A stretch of 51,175 nt of DNA, taken from Acidobacteriota bacterium. GTDB taxonomy: Bacteria > Acidobacteriota > Vicinamibacteria > Vicinamibacterales > 2-12-FULL-66-21. Both the position numbers and the translations under genes were made by a program. The notes under the pieces are model-generated. The model was not told the origin of the DNA, searched no databases, and saw only the letters and a program-made list of their open reading frames with translations. Where the stretch lies: assembly GCA_003222675.1 (NCBI GenBank), contig QHWT01000059.1:1-51175 (forward strand), written 5' to 3'. Below, in pieces: positions 3,845 to 31,438 of this stretch (the first letter of the stretch is position 1; the number at the start of each line of letters is the position of its first letter).

Positions 3845-5284
3845 TCACGCGAGCAGCTTCGTGACCACCTCGCCGCTGACGTCGGTCAATCGGAACTCTC
3901 GTCCTTGAAATCTGTACGTGAGCTTCTCATGGTCGAGTCCCATCAAATGGAGGATGGTCGCGTGCAGATCGTGGACTTCGATCGGATCCTCGACCACGTT
4001 GTAGCCGAGATCGTCCGTGCGTCCGATGGTGACGCCGCGTTTCACGCCGCCGCCCGCCATCCACATGGTGAACGCGCGCGGGTGATGGTCGCGTCCCATG
4101 AGCCGTGACCCATTGCGTGCCTCGTTCATTGGCGTCCGGCCGAACTCGCCGCCCCAGATGACGAGCGTCGTATCGAGCAGGCCTCGTTGTTTGAGATCCG
4201 TCACAAGGGCGGCGGCCGCGCGATCGGTCTCGAGGCAGAGGGCCGGAACCCTGTTCGCAATGTCGGTTCCGACGGTGGCGCCGTGCGTGTCCCAGCCGCG
4301 GTGATACAGCTGCACGAATCGGACGCCGCGCTCGATCAACCGGCGGGCCAGCAGACAGTTGTTTGCAAACGATACTTTGCCCGGTTCGGTCCCGTACAAC
4401 GCGTGGATCGCCGGCGCTTCGTTCGAGATGTCCGTGAGCTCCGGCACGCTGCTCTGCATCCGATACGCCATCTCGTACGATGCGATACGCGTGTCGATCT
4501 CCGGATCACCCGTCTCGGCCCGATGCAGCCTGTTCAAGTCCGTTACGAGGCCGATTGATTCGCGGCGCGTGAGGGCATCCACGCCCTCGGGATTCGAGAC
4601 GAAGAGGACCGGATCGCCCTTCGATCTGAACTCGACGCCTTGATACACGGTCGGAAGGAATCCGCTTCCCCAGCACGACTTGCCGCCATCCGGCGCGTTC
4701 TCACCCGACAGCAGCACGATGAAGCCAGGCAGGTCGCGGCTCTCGCTCCCGAGCCCATACGCGAGCCACGACCCCATGCTCGGACGGCCGAACACCTGGC
4801 TGCCGGTATTCATGAAGATCTGTCCTGGCGCGTGATTGAACTGCGTCGTGTGAACGGACCGAACGATGGCGATGTCGTCGACGATGGTCGACAGATGCGG
4901 GAGCAGCTCCGACACCTCGGCTGCGGCCTGGCCGTACTTCTTGAACGTAAAAGGCGATCCCAGCAGGCGAGGCGTTCCTTTGATAAAGGCGAACCGCTCT
5001 CCCTTCGGAATGAACTCTGCGGGAATCTCTTCGCCATCATGCTTCTGGAGCGTGGGTTTGTTATCGAACAGATCGAGCTGCGTTGGCGCGCCAGCCATGA
5101 ACAAATAAATGATGTTCCTGGCTTTCGGCGCGAAGTGCGGTGGTCGCGGCGCCATCGGGTCCGCCGCCTGAGCGAACAGCTTGTCGTCGAGCAAGGCAGA
5201 CAGCGCCAGGCCGCCGATGCCAAAACCGGACTGCTTGAAGAAATGCCGCCGGGTGATCGCGCGAAGAATAGCGGGATGCATCAT
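3845..5284 (-). CDS. DUF1501 family exported protein
   Basis: 479 residues. Starts with [20 protein letters not shown], a Tat signal with the RRHFF motif, then the DUF1501 (sulfatase-like alkaline-phosphatase fold) body: [42 protein letters not shown] and a C-terminal [20 protein letters not shown]. The function of the family is not settled; it is nearly always paired with a cytochrome/DUF1549/DUF1553 protein, as here. The start codon overlaps the stop of that upstream gene by four bases (ATGA), so the two are probably translationally coupled. Confidence 0.9.
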
Positions 5285-8200
5285 TCCTTTGTCAGCGTTT
5301 CATCGAGGTTGAGGAGCGCGTTTGCGACGAGCGTCCAGGCGGCCTGTTCAGCCGGATCGAAGCCGTCCACCGCGTAGTCTTTGATGACGCGTGCGGCGGC
5401 GTCGTGATCTGTGCGGAACCGTTCGAGATGTTGCGCATACGAGGCAACGATGCGGTCGAGCTCTTCAACTGTCGGCCTCCGCGAGACCGCGATCCGAAAT
5501 GCACGTGCAGCGCGGAGCTTCAGCTCCGCGGGTTCGGCGCCGCTCGAGCCGCGCGCGACGAGTGAGGACGGTTCGCGCAGGATACGGGCCGCCAGGGCTC
5601 GAGCCGCCTCGAAAAACGCTTCATCGTTCAGCGTGATCAGCGCCTGAAGAGGCGTGTTCGTCCGCACGCGTCGGACGGTGCAGCGCTCGCGGCTCGTGGC
5701 GTCGAACGTCAAAAGGCTTGGATACGGCGCGGACCGTCGGATAAACACGTACAATCCGCGACGGTATCGGTCTTCGCCCGTGCTCGGGATCCATTTCTCA
5801 TCGCTGTACGGTATGTCCCAGATCCCCTCGGGCTGCGGCGGGAACACGCTCGGCCCGCCGATCTTGAGGTTGAGCAAGCCGCTCGCGGCGAGGACCGTAT
5901 CGCGCACCATTTCCGCTTCCATTCGGAAGCGCGGCCCACGCGCGAGCAGACGGTTGTACGGATCGCGGTCCAGGAGCACCCGCGTCGCGGTCGACGTCTG
6001 CCTGTAGGTCGCTGACGTGACGATCAGTTTGTGCAGCGCCTTCATCTGCCAGCCGCTCCGCACGAATTGTGTGGCGAGCCAGTCGAGCAGTTCCGGGTGT
6101 GACGGCGGTGTTCCGCGCGTGCCGAAGTCCTCGCTCGTCTCGACGAGGCCGCGCCCGAAGAACTGCTCCCACGCGCGGTTCACCGCGACGCGCGCGGTCA
6201 GCGGGTTCCGCTCGTCGACGAGCCAGTGAGCCAGCCCGAGACGATTCGGCATCTGGTCCTCGCCAAGTGGATGCAGAACTTCAGGAACGCCCGCGTAAAC
6301 CTTCTCGGTCTTGTCCATGAAGCTGCCACGTCGATGCACGTACGCCGACGGGCGCTCGTACGCAACCCGTTCGCGCATCACGAGTGCCGTCGGAATCGAG
6401 AGCTTCGCGAGCTCCTTTTCCAGAGCGGCCAGCCGATCGCGCGTGGGCTTGAGCGACGGCGCGACCGTGCGATAGAAGGCCGAAAGTTCCGCGCGTTGTT
6501 TCTCCGTCCGATTTGTGGCTGGGATCGCCAGGATGGGTCTGAGCTTCGCCGGGATCTCAACGACGCGCTGCGGGGTGCTGCTGGAGGTCACCGACAGCCG
6601 AAACCGGCCCAGCGCTTGACCGACCGCACTTCCGTAGTGCTTGAGACGAATCCGGAGCCGGACCCCCGCCGCACTCTGCAATGGTCGATCGAGCGTGAAG
6701 ACGATCTGTCGGGCAATCCGTGTTTCGTCCCGGCTCGCGTCGATGCGCCATCCGCGTGGCGCGGACGCGTCGCGCGGGAGAACTTTGGGAGAGAAGGAAT
6801 CGACGCTCGCGCCGCCGGCTGCATCATCGGCCTTGATCGCTTTGAGCGAGGAGGGAAGCGCGGCGAAGCCGCGCCGCCGAGCGAGCGGGGGTGGGGCTCC
6901 GCGAGCATTGAGAGAAGCTGACTGAGATGCCGGGACAACCCCAGGCCCCGACGTCTCAATCTCGATCCCATTCAATTGAAAGTTGCCGTACACATCGCGT
7001 CCGGGCCCTCCTTTCGGCAGCGATGGATCCGGCACCGCCTCGAGGCGAATCGCGGTCACGATTGGGAGCGCCGCCGCGGCCTCGACGGTATAAACCGTCT
7101 CACCCGGGTTCGGCCCCGACGCTGTGACCGATCCGTCGTGCATCGGCGTCAACACCACACCGCCTGTTGCGATCAGCCTCTTCGGCGTGAGTACCGTCCA
7201 GCGCACGGCCGGCTCGAGCCTCATCGTCTGCTCCCACCCAGCCTGAGCGCGGTCGAGCGCCCGCGTTTGCGTTTTTTGGCGTTCGTTCAGCCGATCGATC
7301 TCCGACTGAATGGCTTTTCGTTTCGTTTCCTGCTCGGGCGTCGGCACATCGATCGTCGTCTCGAAGAACTTCGTTCCGTCGCTCCGCTTGCTCACCTCGT
7401 AGTCGGTGTTCGAGAAGAACGCCATCATCCTGTAGTAATCCCGCTGGCTGAACGGATCGTACTTGTGATCGTGGCACTGCGCACAGCCGAGCGTGGTGCC
7501 GAGCCACACTGTCGCGGTCGTGTTGACGCGATCGACGAGCACCTCGTAGAGCGCCTCCTCCGGGTCGATGCCGCCTTCCTCGTTCGTCATCGCATTGCGG
7601 TGGAACCCGCTTGCAATCAATTGATCCCTCGTCGCGTCCGGCAACATGTCGCCGGCGATCTGTTCGATCGTGAAGCGATCGAACGGCATGTCGTGATTGA
7701 GCGCGTCGATCACCCAGTCGCGGTACTTCCACATGACTCGCGGCAAATCGCTCTCCATAATGCGGTGACGCGAGCAGGCGATCGACGAGACGCGCGTACG
7801 CGGCGCCGGTGCCATCCTGCGCGGCCTCCGCGCTGACTTGTTCCACTTCCTCAGGCGATGGCGGAAGCCCGATGAGATCGAGCGAGACACGACGGACGAG
7901 TGTTTCGAGCGGCGCCTCTGAGGATGGCGCCAGGCCTTCGTGCTCGAGCCGGGCGAGGATGAATTGATCGATAGGCGTTCGCATCCAGTTAGCGTTGCGG
8001 ACGGTCGGCAGTGCGGGGCGGACCGGGGCGCGATAAGCCCAATGGCGCGACTGCTCCGTTTCAGCTTGCGATGCAGTCGCGGGTGCATCGGCGCTTTCAG
8101 GCCACACGGCCCCTTGATCGATCCACGCGCGAATCAGCTCGATCTGCGCGCGGGCCAGAGGATCCTTGTCCTTTGGCATCTGGTCCTCGCCATCGAGTCC

Positions 8201-22376: not shown

Positions 22377-23591
22377 TCACGCGGATCGTCCGGCGACGGT
22401 CTTCGGGACGATATCGAGTTGCAATGCGGGGTCGGCGGCCGGCACCGCGCGCTCATCGAACCCGAGCTCTCGCCGGATGATGTTGCAGCCCTGGACGATC
22501 GCGGTCGCCTTGTAGAACGCGATTTCGCGGTTGCAGCCCTGGCGGCCGAAGCCGCAGTCGCTCGACACGATCAACTGCTCCGGCGCGATGTGCGCGAGCG
22601 CCATGCGGATGGACGCGGCCACGTCTTCTGCGCGATCGGCTTGCAGTGTGCGATGGCTCACCGCCCCAATGCAGATTTTCTTCGGCAGCGTGCCCTTATA
22701 GGAACCGAACAGCTCGATGTCCGCGAAATTGCGATCCTTCGTCTCAATCGTCCAGACGTCGCCCTTCATCTCATTGAGGTACAACTCGAATGACGCCTTG
22801 TAGCTGGTGTCTTCCATGACGCGCTGCATGTTCGGGTTGCCCCAGCACGTATGAATCCAGATTTCGACGTCGTCGAGTCCCTGCACCTCGCGGTTGTAGC
22901 ACTCGATCATGAACTTCACCTTGTCGTCGTTCGGGCCGAAGGTGTTCGCCATGAAGTGCAGCGTGGGCTCCTCAATCTGGATGCAGCGGCAGCCGGCCGC
23001 GCGCAAGGCGAGTAGTTCCGTGTTCATCGCGACGGCCATGTCCCAGACGACCTCGCGGTTGTCCTTGTACTTATTGGTGTGAATGTCGAGAAAGAGTCCC
23101 ATCACCTGCGAGCAGCAGGTGCCGAAGCGCACCGGTTTAGCGGACTTGCCCTGTGCGATGCGCCAGATTTTTGGATAGTCGAGCGGCCGGTGCTCGATCT
23201 TGCCGACAACCCGCGGCCAGCGCCACGCGGTGTAGATCTCATTGAGCAGCGTGCCCGGTGGATACTTCAGCCAGGGGCTGCGCGTCTGCTCGGACTGGAG
23301 GTGATCCCCCTCGAAGCCGCTCCAGCGCTGGAGCGGATAGTGGTGCCAGCTTCGGCCGGCGAAATCCTCGTCGCAGTGGAAATCGCCGTGCGTGAGGATG
23401 TCGAGACCGGCACGCTGCTCGTCGCTGATCACGACTGCCATGGCGTCCTGGAATTTTTCGCGGAAGCGCACGTCCATCATGCAGGTATCGAGCGGTCGTC
23501 CCCACATGCTCGTGTCGAACCATCGCGGGCGCGGCCACGAACCGGTGACGGTGGCCGGCAGCATCAGATTCCTGGTGACGGTGAACGCCAT
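22377..23591 (-). CDS. cobalamin-independent methionine synthase (MetE C-terminal domain) family protein
   Basis: 404 residues, about the size of a single MetE catalytic barrel. TGSWPRP at the start of the barrel, GLDILTHGDFHCDEDF, IQIEEPTLHF, IHTCWGNPN and SSDCGFGRQ give the expected zinc ligands (His and Cys of HTCWG, a Glu, and Cys of SDCGF). MetE moves a methyl group from a folate to a thiol; short versions like this one may use other methyl donors, so the substrate is open. It lies 15 bases upstream of the AhpD-like gene and probably in the same transcript. Confidence 0.82.
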   Translation of the reverse strand: MAFTVTRNLMLPATVTGSWPRPRWFDTSMWGRPLDTCMMDVRFREKFQDAMAVVISDEQRAGLDILTHGDFHCDEDFAGRSWHHYPLQRWSGFEGDHLQSEQTRSPWLKYPPGTLLNEIYTAWRWPRVVGKIEHRPLDYPKIWRIAQGKSAKPVRFGTCCSQVMGLFLDIHTNKYKDNREVVWDMAVAMNTELLALRAAGCRCIQIEEPTLHFMANTFGPNDDKVKFMIECYNREVQGLDDVEIWIHTCWGNPNMQRVMEDTSYKASFELYLNEMKGDVWTIETKDRNFADIELFGSYKGTLPKKICIGAVSHRTLQADRAEDVAASIRMALAHIAPEQLIVSSDCGFGRQGCNREIAFYKATAIVQGCNIIRRELGFDERAVPAADPALQLDIVPKTVAGRSA

Positions 23592-23638
23592 GCGATGGAG
23601 AATATCACCGCGAAATCAGGAGAGTGAAGGAGACATCG

Positions 23639-24838
23639 ATGAGTGATGGGATCAGGATGGGCGCGGGCGTAGACCGGCGCGAGTTCTTCAAGGTCGCCAG
23701 CGCGGGACTCGCCGCGGCGGCCCTACCGCCGAACGAGCGCCAGCGCGTGAGCCACGCGAGCGGAGCGGGGCCAGGGGCCCCCGCGAGCGAGCGTGTTGGG
23801 GAGTTCGAGGGGCGAAGCCCCTCGATTGAGAATGCGCAATCGCTGGCGGAGAAGAACAAGTTCGATCGCATCGCGTCCTGCTCGTATCCAATTCGCTACA
23901 TCTTCAAGTCGCGCCCCCGGCCCGCGGGTGCCCCTCCTGGCGGCGGCGGATCGCAACTATCGGAAGAACTGAAGAAGAAGTACGGCGAGATCACGATGCT
24001 GGACTTCCCGCAGTTCACCAAGGACACCTTTCCCGGCGTCACGCACATGGACCTGTTTTCGGGGCTGTTCGGCGACGTCACCGACGACAGCATGTTCGCG
24101 GGGCGCCAGTTCGATCCGTCCAGTCCGTCGGGCCGCAAATGGCTCGATGCGCTCGTCGCGAAGATGGCCGCAACGGGAACGAAGCTGCAGCACATCTCCA
24201 ACAACGCGCCGACCAATCTTGCCGAGTCGGATACGGCGCTTCGCAAGGCGGGCGTGGAGATCGGCAAGCGCTGGCTCGACGCCGCCGTCATTCTGGGCGC
24301 CAAGTCGGTCCGGATGAATTCTCCGCAGGCGCTCGGACCCAGCATCCGCCCGAACGCGATAATCGATCCGGAGACTCGGTACCCGAAGAACAACGAGATC
24401 CCGCCGCTGCTGAACAACGCCATCGAATCCTACAAGGAGATGGCGGACTACGGCGGCGACCGCGGGGTGAAGGTGACGATCGAAAACCACTGGGGCCTCG
24501 CCGCCGATCCGATCAACATCCGCATCATTCTCGAGGACGTGAACCATCCGTACTGCGAGGCCTCGCCCGACTTCTGCAACTGGGAACACGAGCACATGCT
24601 GTTCAGCGGCCTGAAGGCGCTCGCGCCCTACGCGCACACGAACGTGCACGCGAAGTACTGGGATCGCTGGGGCGAGAAGAATGACGTGCAGCGCGCCACG
24701 AGAATCATGCTGGCGGGCGGCTTCAAAGGCACCTTCGCGCTGGAGTATGAAGCGGGTCCGCTGAACGGGATCGAAGGCGCGAAGTACCTTTATAAAGAAG
24801 TACTGGCGGCGCTGTCCTCTCCAACACCGGTCGTCTGA
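23639..24838 (+). CDS. exported sugar phosphate isomerase/epimerase (TIM barrel)
   Basis: 399 residues from the ATG at 23639, chosen for its GAAGGAG site; an ATG 15 bases upstream would leave none. MSDGIRMGAGVDRREFFKVA is a Tat signal (DRREFF). The barrel has MLDFPQFTKD, KLQHISNNAPTNL, VKVTIENHWGLAAD, FCNWEHEHM and FALEYEAG, the layout of the xylose-isomerase-like AP2Ec family. A low-complexity insert at residues about 50-65 coincides with a palindromic repeat (23783-23831). Substrate unknown. It converges with the Gfo/Idh gene. Confidence 0.85.
   Translation: MSDGIRMGAGVDRREFFKVASAGLAAAALPPNERQRVSHASGAGPGAPASERVGEFEGRSPSIENAQSLAEKNKFDRIASCSYPIRYIFKSRPRPAGAPPGGGGSQLSEELKKKYGEITMLDFPQFTKDTFPGVTHMDLFSGLFGDVTDDSMFAGRQFDPSSPSGRKWLDALVAKMAATGTKLQHISNNAPTNLAESDTALRKAGVEIGKRWLDAAVILGAKSVRMNSPQALGPSIRPNAIIDPETRYPKNNEIPPLLNNAIESYKEMADYGGDRGVKVTIENHWGLAADPINIRIILEDVNHPYCEASPDFCNWEHEHMLFSGLKALAPYAHTNVHAKYWDRWGEKNDVQRATRIMLAGGFKGTFALEYEAGPLNGIEGAKYLYKEVLAALSSPTPVV
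23783..23831. repeat. palindromic repeat inserted in frame in the isomerase gene
   Basis: GCGAGCGAGCG (23783-23793), TGGGG, a hairpin CGAGGGGC-GAA-GCCCCTCG (23806-23824), then ATTGAGA. Translated as ASERVGEFEGRSPSIE, just after the Tat signal, before the enzyme body. Shares blocks with the element at 6858-6913. Confidence 0.45.
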
Positions 24839-24885: not shown

Positions 24886-25962
24886 TCATCCGCGATGAGC
24901 CCATTTCGGCGCCAGCGATACGCGATGTCGCTCGCGCGCGGATTGGTACGCCGCAAATGCCGCAGCGAGCGAGGTGCGCGCGTCGCGAATGGTCGCGGCT
25001 GGTTGCCGTCCGTGCTCAACGCACTCGATAAGGTGCGCTAACGGCAGCGGAGCGCCGGGCGCGAAGGGTTCCTCGGCCTGCCGCTCGAATACCCAGTCGC
25101 GCGCCCCTGCCGCCAGCACCGCGCGTCCCGGCGCGCGAAACCACTGGTCGTGGATCTCTCCGCGCGTGCCAACGAGCTCGAGCCGGACGACGCTGTTCTG
25201 CTTTGGCGACGGACCGCTCGTCCTCGGCGCGTTAATAGTCCACGACGCTTCGAGCGTGGCAATCGCTCCATTACTCATCGTGAACGTCGCCTGACCCCAG
25301 TCCTCGACGCTGAGGCTCCGGTGAACGATGTTGGCCGTCCGCGCTTCGACGTCGAGAATGTCCGCGCCCGTGAGCCATCGGAACGCATCGATCCAGTAGA
25401 TGCCCTCGTCGATGAACGCGCCGCCTGGCACGCGATCCGGATCGACGAACCAGCCGGGCGTCCCAGAGCGATACCAGTCTTCCGCGATCGACCAGCGGCA
25501 CGTCTGGTGGATGACGGCGAGATCCCCAATGTCGCCCGCATCGAGGCGCGCCTTGAGGTCCGCGAGCCGCAGACGCATGATCCCCTGGAACGGAAAACAG
25601 CAGACGCCCGCGGCTTCCACAGCGTCCACCATTCGATCCGCCTGCTCCAGCGTCATCGCCATGGGCTTGCCGACGATCAGGTGCTTGCCGGCGCGCGCCG
25701 AGAGAATCGTGACGTCGCAGATCTCGGCGACCGGTGTGGCGATGTGGATGATATCGACGCGCTCGTGTTCGAGAAGCGCGGCGTAGTCGCGGTAGGCCTT
25801 GATGCCGAACGTCCGGGTGAACGCCTCGAGCTGCGGCGCGTCGTGCCACGCCGCCGCGACGAGCTCCGCCTTCGGATACTCCGCCAGCCCGCGCGCCAGG
25901 TTGTACGCTGAATACCAGTGGCCGAGGCCGAGGATGGCCAGGCGCCATTTCCGAGTGGTCAC
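24886..25962 (-). CDS. Gfo/Idh/MocA family NAD(P)-dependent oxidoreductase
   Basis: 358 residues from a GTG at 25962. N-terminal Rossmann fold with LAILGLGHWYSAYN, IDIIHIATP-type strand (VDIIHIATPVAE) and GKPMAMTLEQADRM, a variant of the EKP motif; C-terminal GFO_IDH_MocA domain with GGAFIDEGIYWIDAFRWLTG. No export signal, so cytosolic. The family oxidises sugars, inositols and related alcohols. The start lies 16 bases after the borosin methyltransferase stop, on the same strand, so it is probably cotranscribed; whether it acts on the peptide is unknown. Confidence 0.85.
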   Translation of the reverse strand: MTTRKWRLAILGLGHWYSAYNLARGLAEYPKAELVAAAWHDAPQLEAFTRTFGIKAYRDYAALLEHERVDIIHIATPVAEICDVTILSARAGKHLIVGKPMAMTLEQADRMVDAVEAAGVCCFPFQGIMRLRLADLKARLDAGDIGDLAVIHQTCRWSIAEDWYRSGTPGWFVDPDRVPGGAFIDEGIYWIDAFRWLTGADILDVEARTANIVHRSLSVEDWGQATFTMSNGAIATLEASWTINAPRTSGPSPKQNSVVRLELVGTRGEIHDQWFRAPGRAVLAAGARDWVFERQAEEPFAPGAPLPLAHLIECVEHGRQPAATIRDARTSLAAAFAAYQSARERHRVSLAPKWAHRG

Positions 25963-25978
25963 GTATCGCCGATCCGTC

Positions 25979-26800
25979 CTATTTGCGCGGCGCCATCGCT
26001 GCGGTGCCGCGCTCGGTCATCCAGCGCTTCACGCGTGGATCGCGAAGGCGTGAGGGCCGCGGCGGCACGTACAGCGTCATCATCGGCTGCACGGTGCTTC
26101 GCGACAGCTTCGCAAGCGACGTGCGCCTGATAGCGGCGTCACAGATCACAAAGGGAGACGCCTCGTACAGGAACACGGGGTGCCGCGGAGGATAGAACCG
26201 CCCGAGCCACGCCGCGAGCATCGCGAGACGCTCGGGCCGGCATGTCATGCCGTCGTGAACGCTCGGCTCGCCGAGCACGCCGACCTGCCAGAGGATCAGC
26301 GCGCTGGACGGATCGAACCTGCGACGGGCGGCGAGAAAATCGGTGGCCTCGAAACTCTGACATCCGGCCGCCGCCGGATTCACGCCGAGATCGGCGAAGA
26401 GACAGTCCTCGGCGGAAATCCCGGGAAGCATTCGCGCGCGGAACCCTTCACGCCGCGCGCGCCGAATCGCGTCGTGAGACGGGCCGACGAAGACGCCCGG
26501 GTGGCCGTAAAAAGCCGCGCATACCGCGAGGCCGCCTCGGACGGCCGCAAGGATGCGCTCGGTCATCTCGCGATAGGAGTGGCGGCGGGCGCGTCCCGGG
26601 CGATAGGCATCGGCCAGCGACTCCGCCGTCGGGTTCAACTCGCGGACCCACGCGTCACTCAGCGGATCGGCCACCAGGTAAAAGAGCTTGTCGGCCCGCT
26701 GCATCGCGCCAAGCGCCTCGGGGGTCGTCTGCTCGATGACCCTGATGCCCGTGCCGACAACGACCAGCGACCCGCGAGATCGATCGGCTATCGCTTCCAC
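25979..26800 (-). CDS. borosin-type peptide alpha-N-methyltransferase (tetrapyrrole-methylase fold)
   Basis: 273 residues from the GTG at 26800 (a TTG at 26803 is also possible). The protein reads like OphMA/SonM: GSLVVVGTGI, ADKLFYLVADP, FYGHPGVFVGPSH, RARMLPGISAEDCLFADLG, GCQSFEATDFL and LWQVG. With this start, Tyr66, Arg72, Tyr76 and Tyr98 fall at the same numbers as the catalytic or SAM-site residues known for OphMA. The enzyme would methylate backbone amides of a peptide using SAM. It ends after the methyltransferase domain, so it is not fused to a core peptide; the precursor is the overlapping upstream gene. Siroheme/cobalamin methylases are excluded by the HPGVFV and ARMLPG pattern. 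Confidence 0.88.
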   Translation of the reverse strand: MEAIADRSRGSLVVVGTGIRVIEQTTPEALGAMQRADKLFYLVADPLSDAWVRELNPTAESLADAYRPGRARRHSYREMTERILAAVRGGLAVCAAFYGHPGVFVGPSHDAIRRARREGFRARMLPGISAEDCLFADLGVNPAAAGCQSFEATDFLAARRRFDPSSALILWQVGVLGEPSVHDGMTCRPERLAMLAAWLGRFYPPRHPVFLYEASPFVICDAAIRRTSLAKLSRSTVQPMMTLYVPPRPSRLRDPRVKRWMTERGTAAMAPRK

Positions 26801-27006
26801 CAACCCACCACCATCACGGGCCCGGGAAAGCCGCCGTCGATCGCCTTCAATACCTTGTCCAGATCGCGTGACATGAGAAGTGTGCGCTGCTCCTCGGTCA
26901 GCTTGTACTGATCGAGCAGGTCCACGAAACCCTTGAACGTATTTTGCGCCTTGCCTGGTTCCTGGACAGCGCGCATCAAGGCGATCAGACCATCCTGCTG
27001 CTGCAT
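26788..27006 (-). CDS. split-borosin precursor peptide (predicted)
   Basis: 72 residues from the ATG at 27006, with AGGAG five bases upstream; a GTG six bases earlier sits on that site and is rejected. Residues 1-57 look all-helical (NTFKGFVDLLDQYKLTEEQ, then LLMSRDLDKVLKAI), as in the borosin-binding domain of SonA and in LigA-like small proteins. The remaining tail GGFPGPVMVVGWWKR is short and hydrophobic (VMVVGWW), like OphMA and other borosin cores. Its 3' end overlaps the methyltransferase start by 13 bases in another frame. I infer that the methyltransferase binds the helical part and methylates amides of the tail. No protease or export gene for maturation is adjacent. Confidence 0.78.
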   Translation of the reverse strand: MQQQDGLIALMRAVQEPGKAQNTFKGFVDLLDQYKLTEEQRTLLMSRDLDKVLKAIDGGFPGPVMVVGWWKR

Positions 27007-27072
27007 CGTCACTCCTATCGCACCCGTGGACGGCGGGGGTGACGCGATAATGGCCGGGGTGCGCCGCCTACC

Positions 27073-29679
27073 CTATCGTGCGAGACCGAGGCCCGCAAGT
27101 AATTTCGCGAAGCGCGCGTCCGGCCGCAGGCTGTCGAAACGCGGATCGACGGCGAGGTAGCCGACCCAGGGCTCCTGTCGATCTTTCGCACGTTCGAGCC
27201 AGGTGAAGGCCTGCTCGGTGTCGCCGAGCCCGGCACGCACGACCGCGACGGCGGCGGCGACGTCAGACTCCTGTCGGCTGTAGCGCGCCGCCAGATCCTC
27301 GGCAATACGCTCCGCCTCCGATCGCCTGCCGGCACGCGCGAGGATATAGCCCTTCGTGGCATCGGTAATGGGATCGGCGGCCATCAGCGCCGATGCCCTG
27401 TCCGCTTCTGCCAACGCTCGCGCGAAATCCCCCTGGTAGCCGTAGACCTCGGCCAGGGCGAGGTGGGTCCTCGCGAATCCTTGCTCCATCTGCAGAGTCT
27501 TTTCGAGTTGCGTGGCAGCCTTGTCGTACTCGCGGCTGAAGATCTGCAGCGCGCCGACCACGACGTTGACGCTGGGGGACAGCGGATCCAGCGCAAGCGC
27601 CGCGTTGATCTCGACGTTCGCCTCCCGCAGGCGGCCGCGCTTCGACAAGTAGTCCGCATACCAGTGGTGCGCTGTCGCGTATGCCGGCTTGAGTGCCACG
27701 GCGCGCTGGAAATGCTGTTCGCCGGCGTCCCACTCGAAGCGTTGCTCCGCGATCAGGCCGAGCGATGAGTGCGCTTCGGCGAGCGAATCGTCCAGCGTCA
27801 ACGCCGTCGACGCCGCGGTCGACGCGCGCGCCGCGGCCTCTCCACGCGGCGCATGACCATAGATCGACAACAGGGTGTACCCATCGGCGAGGCCGGCATA
27901 CGCCCGTGCGAATTTCGGATCGCGATCGATGGCTTCCTGGAAATACTGGATGCTCCGCTTCAACCCTTCTTCCGTGCGCATGTTCCAGTAATAGCGGCCC
28001 CGCAGATACAGATCGATGACCGCTGCATCCTGCCCGCCCACGCCCTCGCGCGCCGCCATCGTCAGCGCGCTCTGCTGCTGCGGGTTCAGGTGCAGATTGA
28101 TGCCGTCGGCGACTGCCTTCGCGATTCTGCTCTGCAGCGCCAGCACGTCGGTGAGCGCCACCTCGAAGGTCTGGTTCCAGATCTGAGCGTCGGTACCCGC
28201 GTAGATCAGCCTCGCGGTCACACGTACTCGGCTGGGCGCCTCAGCACGGCCCTCGCTTCCACGAACGACGAACACCGTGCCTTCGAGCGCCGCGTCGACG
28301 TGCAGCGCCTGCGCGATCTCGGGAATGCGCGCGTTCGTCCCTTTGAAGCGCATTGCCGACGTGCGAGAAATCACCTTCAGGCCTTTGAGCTGCCCGAGCG
28401 CGGCAATCAACTCGTCGGTCATCGCATCCGCGAAGTAGTCCTGCCCGGCGTCTCCGGACACGTTCGCCAGCGGCAGGACCACAAGTGATTGCACCGGCTG
28501 GAGTGCCGGACGCGAGAGAGAGACAGGCCAGAGCCGCGCGACGGCCAGAGCGAGGAGCAGGATCGCGGCGCCAAACGCCCCCGCTCGCCACCATGCCGGC
28601 CGTACACGTACGGGCGCCGGCGCCGGCGCGGTGATCGTTGGCGTCGTGTTCGCACCCTCGAGTGCGCGAAGGAGGTCGGCCTCGAACGCACCCGCACTCG
28701 GGTAGCGCTCCTCTGGATTGGCCGCAAGCGCGCGCTCGACGACCCGCACGAACGCGGACGGTAAATCAGGTCGCGCGTCGCGAAGCGCGATCGTGCGCCG
28801 CTCGACGTGCTCGGTCCGCAGTTGCTCAATGGTCGACGCGCGAACGGGGAACGATCCGGAAACGAGGCGATACAACACCACGCCGAGGCTGTACAGATCC
28901 GTCCGCACGTTGGCGGCCGCGCCGCGGAAGATCTCCGGCGCAATATAAAGAGGGGTACCCGCAACATCTCCGACAGTCGTCGCGTGCTCCGGATTCAGTT
29001 CCCGTCCCGTCCCGAGATCCATGAGGACGATCCGTCCGCCCTCTTCACGCATCACGTTCTGGGTCTTGATGTCGCGGTGGACGAGTCCTGCCGCATGGAT
29101 CGCGGCGAGCGCGTGGCACAGTTCGATCCCGACGATTGCGGCTTCGCGTGCGCCCATCGGTCCGTGCGTGGCGATGAATTCCTCGAGCGTCAGGCCCTGC
29201 ACGAGATCCATCCAGAGGCCTACCCGCCCGCCATGACTCGCCACGCCGTGCACGGTCACGACGTTCGGATGCCGCATGCGCGCCAGCAGTCTTGCTTCGG
29301 CCGTGATGCGCGATGTGATCAGATCCGCGTCGGGATCGTCCGTCCGCAGCAGCTTGAGCGCGACTTCGCGCTCGAGATCGCGATCCCACGCGCGGTACAC
29401 ATCGCCGGACGTGCCGCCGCCCAACCGCTCGAGCAGCAGCAGCGGCCCCCATGTGCCTACGGCAGACTGTTGCGACACGCGCGGCGCGACGCGGCGCGCG
29501 ACCGGATCCGGCGGCACCGGCAGACTGCGGTGCAGCACCGCCAGTTCCGACACGACGCGAAGCTGACGGACGAGGTCGCGGTGATCGGGGCTGATCTGCG
29601 ATTCCACCTCGTTCCAGTCGACGGCGCGGCCGTCGGCGATCGACTCCGCGAGCGCGAGGAGCACCGCCTCAGACGGCAC
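27073..29679 (-). CDS. transmembrane Ser/Thr protein kinase with TolB-like and TPR domains
   Basis: 868 residues. Kinase domain about 78-340: glycine loop LGGGTSGDVY (85-94), Lys109 in VALKLL, HRDIKTQN (201-208), DLG (221-223) instead of DFG, and APE in LYIAPE. One membrane helix about 364-384. Outside: a FlgO/TolB-N-like domain (LVVLPLANVSGDAGQDYFAD) and TPR repeats to the end. Typical acidobacterial STK with sensor/TPR tail. It overlaps the ECF sigma gene by 11 bases and lies 66 bases upstream of the borosin precursor, all minus strand; a kinase-sigma pair that may control expression. Confidence 0.88.
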   Translation of the reverse strand: MPSEAVLLALAESIADGRAVDWNEVESQISPDHRDLVRQLRVVSELAVLHRSLPVPPDPVARRVAPRVSQQSAVGTWGPLLLLERLGGGTSGDVYRAWDRDLEREVALKLLRTDDPDADLITSRITAEARLLARMRHPNVVTVHGVASHGGRVGLWMDLVQGLTLEEFIATHGPMGAREAAIVGIELCHALAAIHAAGLVHRDIKTQNVMREEGGRIVLMDLGTGRELNPEHATTVGDVAGTPLYIAPEIFRGAAANVRTDLYSLGVVLYRLVSGSFPVRASTIEQLRTEHVERRTIALRDARPDLPSAFVRVVERALAANPEERYPSAGAFEADLLRALEGANTTPTITAPAPAPVRVRPAWWRAGAFGAAILLLALAVARLWPVSLSRPALQPVQSLVVLPLANVSGDAGQDYFADAMTDELIAALGQLKGLKVISRTSAMRFKGTNARIPEIAQALHVDAALEGTVFVVRGSEGRAEAPSRVRVTARLIYAGTDAQIWNQTFEVALTDVLALQSRIAKAVADGINLHLNPQQQSALTMAAREGVGGQDAAVIDLYLRGRYYWNMRTEEGLKRSIQYFQEAIDRDPKFARAYAGLADGYTLLSIYGHAPRGEAAARASTAASTALTLDDSLAEAHSSLGLIAEQRFEWDAGEQHFQRAVALKPAYATAHHWYADYLSKRGRLREANVEINAALALDPLSPSVNVVVGALQIFSREYDKAATQLEKTLQMEQGFARTHLALAEVYGYQGDFARALAEADRASALMAADPITDATKGYILARAGRRSEAERIAEDLAARYSRQESDVAAAVAVVRAGLGDTEQAFTWLERAKDRQEPWVGYLAVDPRFDSLRPDARFAKLLAGLGLAR

Positions 29680-30250
29680 GGTTCATCTCCTCGGCGAGGC
29701 GCAGCAGCGCGCGACTGACCGCCATCCGCGCGGCGTCTGCCGTGGGCTTCCCCAGGGCCTGCGCGACCGCGTCGTAAGTCGCGTCCATTTCCACGCGCGT
29801 GATGATCGCTTCCCGCTCCTCGGGCCGCAGGCGCGCCAGTGCGGCTTCGTAGCGGTCCACCGCTTCACGTCCGATGGCTAAGTCGAGCGGTGAAGCGCCC
29901 CCTTCCGGATGGTCCTCATCGAGTGTCGTGGCGACGGGCGTGCGGGCGCTGCGACGCACCTCGTCGCGGATCCGATTCATTACCGCCTGACGGAGGTACG
30001 CCTGCAGCGCCCCCTCATGTCGCGGCTCGAACGCGTCGACGCGTTTGACGGCGCGCAGGACCGTTTCCTGGACGAGGTCGTCGGTATCCATCAGGTCGCG
30101 CGTCCAGCGTGGCAGGCGGCCGCGGGCCCAGCGCCTGAGCGGCGGCAGGCAGCGGGCAAAGAGGCGATCGAGGGCTCCGGCGTCGCCGGTCTTCGCGAGG
30201 CGCACCAGGGCAAGCGTCGATTCGAGGTCGGGTGGGCGCGGCTTGTCCAT
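29669..30250 (-). CDS. ECF-type RNA polymerase sigma factor (kinase-linked group)
   Basis: 193 residues from the ATG at 30250; the longer frame to 30484 is uncharacteristic. Sigma2 region LPRWTRDLMDTDDLVQETVL and a sigma4 helix-turn-helix (YDAVAQALGKPTADAARMAV, with MNRIRDEVRR between) are visible. The gene overlaps the kinase gene by 11 bases. Sigma factors of this type in Acidobacteriota and Planctomycetes are typically paired with Ser/Thr kinases. Its targets are not known; the downstream borosin genes are in line. Confidence 0.85.
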   Translation of the reverse strand: MDKPRPPDLESTLALVRLAKTGDAGALDRLFARCLPPLRRWARGRLPRWTRDLMDTDDLVQETVLRAVKRVDAFEPRHEGALQAYLRQAVMNRIRDEVRRSARTPVATTLDEDHPEGGASPLDLAIGREAVDRYEAALARLRPEEREAIITRVEMDATYDAVAQALGKPTADAARMAVSRALLRLAEEMNRAV

Positions 30251-30508
30251 GGGAGCGGGAGGTCCCGCGGAACGGGTACGGTCAGTATCATAGGAGTTCA
30301 CGCACCGGGTTTGAAGGGCCATGTTCAGTCCCGCCAACGCGATTGCCGCCCCGACCCGCCGCACACCCATACGCATGGCTCGTCCCACCCAATCCCTCGT
30401 CCTCGTATAACGACAAAGGCGAACCGATAGAACACCGTGTTCGTCTGAACCGGCGGGTGCGTTGATTGAGATGACGGGATTCACCCCGTCCTCTCACGAG
30501 CGATCGTC

Positions 30509-31438
30509 ATGCACATTACGGCAGGATCTCAGCTGGGTCCGTATCGGGTTCAGGAACTCATCGGCAAAGGAGGCATGGGAGAGGTCTATCGCGCCTACGA
30601 CTCGCGGCTGGATCGCGGCGTGGCGCTGAAGGTGCTGGCGCCGGACGTGCCGAGCACGCAGGAACACCTCGCACGATTCGCGCAGGAAGCGCGCGCCGCG
30701 GCGACCATCAATCATCCCAATGTCGTGACGGTGTACGACGTGGGCGCGCACGACGGGACGCCCTTCATCATCTCCGAGCTCCTCGAGGGAGAAACGCTCC
30801 GCGCGCGCCTGGCGGCGCGTGCGCTGCGCGCGACGGCCGCGGTGGCCTACGGGCGGCAGATCACGGAAGGCCTCATCGCGGCGCACCGGCTTGGCATCGT
30901 GCATCGGGATCTGAAGCCCGAGAACGTCTTCATCACGCGCGGCGAGCGCGTGAAGATCCTCGATTTCGGCCTCGCACGATGCCGCGAGCAGGCAATCGAG
31001 CGCCTGCAGGATCCGGTGATCTCGACACGCCCCGGCACCCTCCTCGGAACCGTCGGCTACATGTCGCCGGAGCAGATCCGCGGGCACGCGCTCGACGCAC
31101 GGTCCGACCTGTTCAGCCTCGGCGCGATCCTGTACGAGATGGTCGCGGGTGCGCCGGCGTTTCATGGCGATTCGCCCATCGAGACACTGAGCGCAATTCT
31201 GCGAGACGATCCGCCGCGCTTGCGCTCGGCAGCGGCCGCGGTGCCGGAATTCGACCGCGTGATTCGGCACTGCCTTGAAAAAGACCGCGACGCGCGGTTC
31301 CAGTCGGCCCGCGATCTGCTGTTCAATCTGGAGCTCGTCGCAGCCGCGCGACGGGACCGCGGCGCACAGTGCAACGTCGGCGACGATGCGTGGACGTCGA
31401 TCAAGGTCAACGGCTGGTGGCACCGCTGTTTCGGGTGA
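30509..31438 (+). CDS. Ser/Thr protein kinase, catalytic domain only
   Basis: 309 residues. Hanks-type domain with IGKGGMGEVYRAYDS, Lys41 (VALKVL), HRDLKPEN (132-139), DFG (152-154), GTVGYMSPEQ. The C-terminus after the domain (about 275 onward) is short, with no membrane helix or sensor domain, which related acidobacterial kinases usually have, so the gene may be truncated; the end NGWWHRCFG is not typical. Divergent from the sigma gene by 258 bases. Confidence 0.88.
   Translation: MHITAGSQLGPYRVQELIGKGGMGEVYRAYDSRLDRGVALKVLAPDVPSTQEHLARFAQEARAAATINHPNVVTVYDVGAHDGTPFIISELLEGETLRARLAARALRATAAVAYGRQITEGLIAAHRLGIVHRDLKPENVFITRGERVKILDFGLARCREQAIERLQDPVISTRPGTLLGTVGYMSPEQIRGHALDARSDLFSLGAILYEMVAGAPAFHGDSPIETLSAILRDDPPRLRSAAAAVPEFDRVIRHCLEKDRDARFQSARDLLFNLELVAAARRDRGAQCNVGDDAWTSIKVNGWWHRCFG

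Follow-up and report, generated by a model that had tools for sequence, protein, structure and literature searches.

We analyzed a 51,175-nucleotide stretch of Acidobacteriota DNA (contig QHWT01000059.1, positions 1 to 51,175; hereafter the window) and found four minus-strand genes encoding, in transcription order, an extracytoplasmic function (ECF) sigma factor, a Ser/Thr kinase, a 72-amino-acid precursor peptide, and a methyltransferase. The last two were assigned with high confidence, on the evidence of their sequences, to a split borosin similar to type IV, which belongs to the ribosomally synthesized and post-translationally modified peptides (RiPPs), and we proposed that this split borosin operon is very probably under its own signaling module, composed of the sensor kinase and the ECF sigma factor. 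The identity of the methyltransferase, the binding domain of the precursor, the catalytic residues, and the gene order with its conservation were read directly from the sequence. A first-pass annotation had placed a split borosin pair here, and both genes were found at the places it gave; the pairing itself was supported by the sequences of the two genes and, weakly, by the fold predicted for the precursor. The features of the operon are as follows.

30287..30315, minus strand: putative sigma-70-type promoter TTCAAA-N17-TATGAT (9 of 12 matches), upstream of the operon, before the sigma factor gene
29669..30250, minus strand: ECF sigma factor; open reading frame (ORF) open to 30484, likely start MDKPRPP at 30250, stop at 29669
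27073..29679, minus strand: transmembrane Ser/Thr kinase, 868 aa; kinase domain at 83-327, one transmembrane segment at approximately 366-388, C-terminal TolB/CadC-like and TPR region
26788..27006, minus strand: precursor peptide gene, 72 aa; borosin-binding domain at approximately residues 2-57, then a C-terminal tail
26791..26817, minus strand: presumed core VMVVGWWKR, residues 64-72 (from the sequence); V64-V67 lie near the positions of SonA Leu63/Ile65, and their methylation is presumed
25979..26803, minus strand: borosin alpha-N-methyltransferase; start at TTG 26803 or GTG 26800

The borosin methyltransferase and its precursor

The top PDB matches of the window methyltransferase (METHYLTRANSFERASE) were SonM (4.9e-53) and fungal borosin enzymes including OphMA (4.2e-52, with an alignment spanning 245 residues), whereas the first tetrapyrrole methylase, a precorrin-2 methylase, matched only at 0.39. 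Tyr66, Arg72, Tyr76, and Tyr98, to which the annotation had drawn attention, were all present when the GTG at 26800 was counted as residue 1; these positions follow what we take to be the OphMA numbering. Over 63 aligned rows, Tyr76 and Tyr98 were invariant (63/63), 61 rows kept Arg72, and 52 kept Tyr66. In the clade to which the window belongs, nine of nine rows had the full set of four residues. In a search of the window's genome, one methyltransferase gene only was found, and no second borosin elsewhere. These results indicated that the enzyme is, by its sequence, a borosin alpha-N-methyltransferase. A cobalamin/siroheme or other TP-methylase with an unrelated small gene beside it can be dismissed: Pfam assigned the protein only to the general TP_methylase family (3.4e-18), but the gap in the PDB matches between SonM/OphMA and the precorrin-2 methylase ruled out the cobalamin/siroheme identity, the borosin catalytic residues are in place, and the relatives too carry a binding-domain gene beside the methyltransferase.

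The precursor was more divergent. SonA was not recovered in a PDB search with the window precursor alone, in which the best matches were unrelated proteins at 0.15. A profile of 23 precursors matched SonA at 1e-14, LigA at 0.0017, and the OphMA clasp at 0.005; a leave-one-out binding-domain profile gave the window precursor 19.9 bits, compared with 3.1 bits for the best of 200 residue shuffles. There was also a weak Pfam LigA match of the window precursor (0.0047). The deposited SonA itself bears the label of a LigA-domain protein; the LigA matches thus reflect a resemblance common to SonA, and LigA was rejected as the family of the precursor. An AlphaFold model computed with the precursor alignment predicted five helices over residues 2-57 and a disordered tail, at a mean predicted local distance difference test (pLDDT) score of 69.

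The closest known counterpart is SonM/SonA of Shewanella oneidensis (type IV; PDB 7LTC), as described in the available portion of its report (PMC8429565). The two systems have in common the methyltransferase family with its catalytic residues and a separate precursor of approximately 70 aa with a binding domain and a short hydrophobic C-terminal tail; unlike in SonM/SonA, the window precursor gene precedes and overlaps the methyltransferase gene, and the identity between its precursor and SonA was about 15-18% in a structural alignment. OphMA, the fused enzyme of omphalotin, is alike in its methyltransferase (4e-52), but its core lies in the same chain, whereas the window core lies on a separate gene. 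In the reading that we propose, five helices of the 72-aa precursor would form the binding domain and dock on the methyltransferase; the enzyme would then methylate backbone amides of the C-terminal tail, most likely within V64-V67, a range suggested by position from SonA, for which the accessible text gives methylation at Leu63 and Ile65 (PMC8429565).

Relatives of the methyltransferase were found in 11 of 162 genomes of the window's order (11 of 86 genera) and in 9 of 297 genomes drawn from the phylum, its own genome included in both counts, and span at least 10 phyla. The annotation had named Proteobacteria and fungi as the groups in which such pairs are known, but split borosins are not confined to these; borosin types IV-X are likewise described as bacterial and widespread in the part of PMC11285071 that was available. 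Among the loci collected were six putative Thermoplasmatota (archaeal) contigs from metagenome-assembled genomes (MAGs) with a borosin methyltransferase and precursor (L010, L011, L012, L013, L018, and L030).

The sigma factor-kinase module

A quick maximum-likelihood tree with 63 rows placed the window in a nine-row clade with SH-aLRT support of 99; this tree was built without 5 of the 67 representatives described below (cut loci or very distant rows), and 22 of its 60 inner branches had support under 80. The order sigma factor-kinase-precursor-methyltransferase was kept in all eight clade loci with enough upstream DNA (the window, L002, L003, L006, L007, L008, L140, and L151). L005, also seen as L152, had the kinase, precursor, and methyltransferase up to the contig end, L004 was cut, and in L141 the TPR gene was cut and no precursor could be clearly recognized. 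Downstream genes were compared by eye for size, strand, and first residues, and none was common to the loci except in the close pair L004/L005; the unit thus comprises four genes. Judged by this gene order, the kinase and the sigma factor are part of a conserved unit, and the kinase/sigma link pointed out in the first-pass annotation is real and conserved.

The sigma factor and kinase genes overlap by 11 nt, a gap of 66 nt separates the kinase from the precursor gene, and an AGGAG motif resembling a Shine-Dalgarno site lies five bases upstream of the precursor ATG. The precursor and methyltransferase genes overlap by 13-16 nt, so that the VMVVGWWKR codons extend into the methyltransferase start. 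The four genes are presumably co-transcribed. TTCAAA-N17-TATGAT was the sole promoter-like site in 25900-30700, for which shuffled sequences gave an average of 0.4. Identical hexamers with a 17-nt spacer precede the sigma factor gene in L006 and L007, and the exact pattern was not found before that gene in L003, L008, and L151; the L002 and L140 loci are too short upstream for this comparison.

The sigma factor matched Pfam Sigma70_r2 (1.2e-12) and, above the family cut-off, NCBIfam sigma70-ECF (5.8e-21). Its gene adjoins the Ser/Thr kinase gene and has no anti-sigma gene beside it, the other neighbor being a further kinase (30509-31438). The operon kinase matched Pfam Pkinase (4.8e-43) and TPR, with the motifs HRDIKTQN at 201 and DLG at 221. 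Hydropathy peaked at 368 within its one hydrophobic segment, and more Arg on the N side of this segment predicted the kinase domain inside and the TPR part outside. The part C-terminal of the segment matched TPR proteins at 9e-22. A model of this ectodomain from a 12-sequence alignment (pLDDT 91) consisted of an alpha/beta domain followed by a TPR superhelix; in Foldseek, designed and O-GlcNAc-transferase TPR superhelices were the best matches, and the CadC periplasmic domain ranked sixth (E 1.5e-8, target TM-score 0.64-0.67, rmsd about 6 A). The modeled ectodomain thus has a sensor-like architecture, which says nothing on its ligand.

These results made it likely that the sensor kinase and the sigma factor control the split borosin. 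In the mechanism that we propose, the membrane Ser/Thr kinase, with its kinase domain predicted inside and a CadC-like TPR sensor outside, would detect a cue from beyond the cytoplasm and relay it to the sigma factor, presumably by phosphorylation, and the sigma factor would set transcription. The precedent is PknS of Xanthomonas citri, which phosphorylates the ECF sigma factor EcfK, whereby the type VI secretion system is induced and amoeba predation resisted, according to the accessible part of PMC13147305. In PknS/EcfK and in EcfP/PknT (ECF43), as in the window, a Ser/Thr kinase gene lies beside an ECF sigma factor gene without an anti-sigma factor (PMC13147305, PMC8999054, each from the portion available). 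Unlike ECF43, in which the acidic DAED motif is lost (available text of PMC8999054), the window sigma factor keeps an acidic region 2.2, and its operon adds RiPP genes.

Several observations weigh against this interpretation. Region 2.2 of the sigma factor retains acidic residues (DTDDLVQE in the sequence), so the known ECF43 phosphorylation switch is not directly applicable, and phosphorylation would need another way. A second sigma factor-kinase pair exists in the same genome without an adjacent borosin, and no conserved protease or exporter gene was found in the compared loci. For the precursor, leave-one-out scoring ranked the window's binding domain as the weakest of the 23; in the binding-domain profile search, LigA (protocatechuate dioxygenase alpha chain) at 0.0017 outranked most OphMA entries. 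Foldseek of the precursor model returned SonA chains in 22 of 23 matches and LigAB in one, none of them significant (best E 0.64), and the VIA Z score was 6.0 for SonA, weak for a helical bundle, and 5.1 for LigA. Finally, the hydrophobic tail of the window is not conserved, being absent from all eight clade relatives with a recognized precursor.

The sigma factor family is commoner than the borosin, with matches at 1e-30 in 70 of 162 genomes of the order. At 12 further sigma factor loci, a kinase accompanied the sigma factor in nine, and SagB-type peptide dehydrogenases (TIGR03605, 2e-34 to 2e-31) followed the related sigma factor-kinase modules in four:

L221, 4527-5843: SagB-type peptide dehydrogenase
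L222, 3553-4725: SagB-type peptide dehydrogenase
L224, 3768-4877: SagB-type peptide dehydrogenase
L226, 4650-5792: SagB-type peptide dehydrogenase

From this arrangement, such modules may have a wider role in RiPP clusters. A 90-aa Lys-rich ORF was observed between the kinase and the dehydrogenase in L226.

Sensor genes beside borosin loci and possible roles of the peptide

We addressed the wider link between sensors and borosins by reducing 89 loci to 67 representatives, 22 being dropped as at least 80% identical in the methyltransferase, and by comparing 144 genes directly beside the methyltransferase or precursor with 178 genes three or more away. Genes were called by custom scripts rather than a gene finder, and the far genes were shorter, some being cut at locus ends. 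With p-values that assume independence, and with loci related by descent so that the counts are not independent, the adjacent genes were enriched in TPR (40/144 vs 1/178, p 9e-15), protein kinase (24/144 vs 2/178, p 2e-7), AAA_16 (17/144 vs 0/178, p 7e-7), class III cyclase (9/144 vs 1/178, p 0.006), and BTAD (4/144 vs 0/178, p 0.04) domains; histidine kinases were not enriched (3/144 vs 4/178). Among genes of at least 400 aa, kinases (24/72 vs 0/38) and TPR (28/72 vs 1/38) kept this distribution, and the counts for class III cyclases (9/72 vs 1/38) and BTAD (4/72 vs 0/38) were not significant. The profiles for neighbor domains were built from the neighbors themselves, and Pfam agreed where run, among the first 25 families listed: 23 protein kinases were counted in 136 of the 144 adjacent proteins and one, the window's own 30509-31438, in 120 of the 178 far genes. 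The eight adjacent proteins outside the Pfam scan for size include one kinase (L051). At least one such neighbor was present in 42 of the 67 loci, and none in 25 by the profiles used.

On the tree, the neighbor type switched no fewer than 17 times with switches to or from "none" included, and 12 times for presence or absence alone. Its architectures comprised kinase-TolB-TPR (Acidobacteriota), kinase-AAA (Cyanobacteriota), kinase-WD40 (Planctomycetota), cyclase-TolB-TPR (Thermoplasmatota MAGs), cyclase-AAA-TPR (Actinomycetota), BTAD-AAA-TPR (Chloroflexota), and a TPR-histidine kinase hybrid (Alteromonas). With SonM as query, the order to which Alteromonas L079 belongs yielded relatives at 1e-40 in 47 of 197 genomes, and the best 20 distinct genomes of these 47 by E-value, all from this one order, formed a SonM-like set (L170-L189). 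Unlike the window with its sigma factor-kinase pair, the SonM-like loci have a TPR-GGDEF protein: 19 of the 20 loci had a GGDEF gene no more than two genes away from the borosin genes, the remaining one (L183) having TPR proteins, and the SonA-like precursor genes adjoin the TPR-GGDEF gene. Adjacent genes again exceeded far genes in GGDEF (16/47 vs 3/114) and TPR (13/47 vs 0/114). Pfam on ten of these neighbors gave TPR in ten and GGDEF in eight, among the families listed, with GGDEF as a separate ORF in L173. All 18 full-length GGDEF proteins within two genes had a hydrophobic segment at approximately 372-412, and 14 had a hydrophobic N-terminus at the threshold used; in the window kinase and in these 18 proteins, a hydrophobic segment near residue 370-410 parts the TPR from the catalytic region. 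Taken together, the gene neighborhoods indicate that the sensor link to borosin loci is general, and the CHARACTERISED system appears to fit the sensor pattern, as judged by the SonM-like loci in the order of Alteromonas L079.

The tail of the precursor bears on what the peptide might do. In the window, the 14 residues after the binding domain (GFPGPVMVVGWWKR, 50% hydrophobic) end in VMVVGWWKR, residues 64-72, and carry a net charge of +2. Among the eight clade relatives with a recognized precursor, seven (L002, L003, L005, L006, L007, L008, and L140) have tails of 35-90 residues that are rich in Lys, Arg, Pro, and Ala, with net charges of +12 to +28, and the eighth (L151) has 73 residues with a repeated EQNN motif and +7. 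Beyond the clade, smaller cationic tails were observed in the archaeal L010, L013, and L018 (+6 to +9) and one of +19 in L019, a doubtful ORF, and short hydrophobic tails after Pro-Gly in L026, L047, and L069. The hydrophobic tail seen by the first-pass annotation is therefore present, and plausible as the core of the window, but this exact core is not a conserved feature of the clade. The annotation had listed a non-conserved tail among the outcomes that would speak against its reading, and for the exact core this outcome was observed; the split borosin pair is left unrefuted, because cores vary freely in the borosin family. A frameshifted cationic tail was also considered for the window; the other frames after VMVVGWWKR, inspected by eye, held no Lys-rich reading, so that a cationic tail seems to be absent rather than shifted.

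It is quite possible that the peptide is an effector, whether antimicrobial, membrane-active, or nucleic-acid binding via the cationic tail of the relatives, and that the kinase and sigma factor only time its production, for example under stress or predation. The strongly cationic tails of the seven relatives point in this direction, as do the induction by PknS/EcfK of a type VI secretion system against amoeba predation, in the accessible text of PMC13147305, and the SagB-type peptide dehydrogenases at 4 of the 12 further sigma factor loci. The window tail is itself short and nearly neutral, however, no conserved immunity or export gene was found, and a regulator alone leaves the recurrence of TPR with many output domains unexplained.

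More tentatively, the N-methylated peptide might be the ligand of the neighboring TPR sensor, a pheromone or self-signal for which kinase, class III cyclase, GGDEF, or BTAD would serve as interchangeable outputs. In the window, binding of the peptide to the outer TPR domain would act through the kinase and the ECF sigma factor to switch on the peptide's own operon. The enrichment of TPR and kinases beside the methyltransferase or precursor, with Pfam Pkinase at 23/136 vs 1/120, the GGDEF and TPR counts in the 20 SonM-like loci, and the segment that parts TPR from catalytic region are consistent with such a loop; moreover, the outputs change around a constant TPR, with at least 17 changes of neighbor type, which favors sensing of something tied to the peptide. 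Proximity fits operon regulation equally well, however, no conserved export route was found, and the window TPR, unlike the cytoplasmic RRNPP receptors, is predicted to lie outside the cell. In addition, 25 of the 67 loci lack such a neighbor, the counts are not independent, the SonM-like loci come from one order, and paralogous sigma factor-kinase pairs exist without a borosin. Regulation of an effector peptide is at least as likely as the pheromone, given the SagB-type dehydrogenases beside related sigma factor-kinase modules. Extended to bacterial split borosins at large, the idea would define a class of peptide signaling in which a protease-resistant N-methylated peptide is read by an adjacent TPR sensor and outputs are swapped between lineages, and we regard this generalization, too, as possible but unlikely.

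RRNPP receptors are TPR proteins, and RRNPP peptides are unmodified. In RRNPP systems, a small peptide gene adjoins the gene of its receptor, which is intracellular (PMC10075063, available portion). The window precursor gene likewise adjoins that of the TPR-bearing kinase, but here the TPR part belongs to a kinase and is predicted to lie outside. The TOMM system kinase/cyclase fusion (NCBIfam TIGR03903) ties, by its family name, a kinase/cyclase signaling protein to a RiPP system; the window kinase scored 100.6 against its cut-off of 705.75, over the kinase domain only, and thus fell below it.

It is improbable that the precursor gene of the window is degenerating, with loss of the cationic tail and drift in the binding domain, so that the peptide is not made here. 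Such decay would accord with the weakest binding domain of the 23, with 14 residues after that domain compared with 35-90 in the eight relatives, and with the other genome of the same genus that was searched (one, 88% complete), in which the methyltransferase was not found. Against it, the frame is open, the GC content at third codon positions (0.77) is as in the neighboring genes, the Shine-Dalgarno-like site is present, the methyltransferase has all catalytic residues, and the short hydrophobic tails after Pro-Gly recur in L026, L047, and L069.

Returning to control of the split borosin by its own module, we consider that a link between TPR sensors and borosins, with varying outputs in many phyla, offers a concrete hypothesis on what split borosin peptides do, and that the acidobacterial operon shows this link most clearly, since a single gene run joins the sensor to the sigma factor, the peptide, and the enzyme. 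Imani et al. 2022 is reportedly the survey that defined further borosin types. In the portions available, borosin types 0-X plus a proposed XI are recognized (PMC11395268), and, according to the 2021 SonM/SonA paper, no final natural product had by then been assigned to any type IV pathway (PMC8429565). One figure legend of 2024 that deals with borosin architectures mentions GGDEF (PMC11395268, available part), and the idea of sensor neighbors may thus be partly known. In the literature searched, with most subscription journals outside the search, "borosin" was not joined with "tetratricopeptide" nor "split borosin" with "Acidobacteri", "borosin" and "Acidobacteri" occurred together in one paper, once each, and nothing useful was found on kinase with gene neighborhood, kinase-TolB-TPR, or TOMM kinase/cyclase.

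Further loci and flanking genes

Several loci had unusual forms of the borosin genes. In the putative archaeal MAGs L012, L013, and L018, a class III cyclase-TolB-TPR gene was observed beside the borosin genes. In cyanobacterial loci among L022-L062 and L074, the precursor tails were acidic and of the DPGPDPLPDPDP type; most of these precursors lay at a distance of 1-3 kb from the methyltransferase, usually immediately ahead of a kinase gene, which in L022 has an AAA domain. Precursors of more than 300 aa with many VVYAAG / MVYGA repeats, and thus of multi-core look, were found in L053 (4069-4998) and L065 (4021-4998). The binding domain was fused ahead of the methyltransferase, with a second methyltransferase gene adjacent, in L084 (542-1501), L085 (545-1504), and L086 (442-1401), and L069 had a double-length methyltransferase ORF (4893-6629).

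Downstream of the methyltransferase gene in the window, a Gfo/Idh/MocA gene (24886-25962) follows after 16 nt; it was considered as a tailoring enzyme and dropped, as downstream genes were not common to the loci outside the pair L004/L005. Further downstream, 22377-24838 holds a cobalamin-independent methionine-synthase-like gene and a xylose-isomerase-like TIM barrel gene. On the other side, a short second Ser/Thr kinase is divergent from the sigma factor gene in the window (30509-31438, plus strand), in L007 (99-1058, minus strand), and in L220 (1433-2356, minus strand), and may belong to the sigma factor-kinase module.

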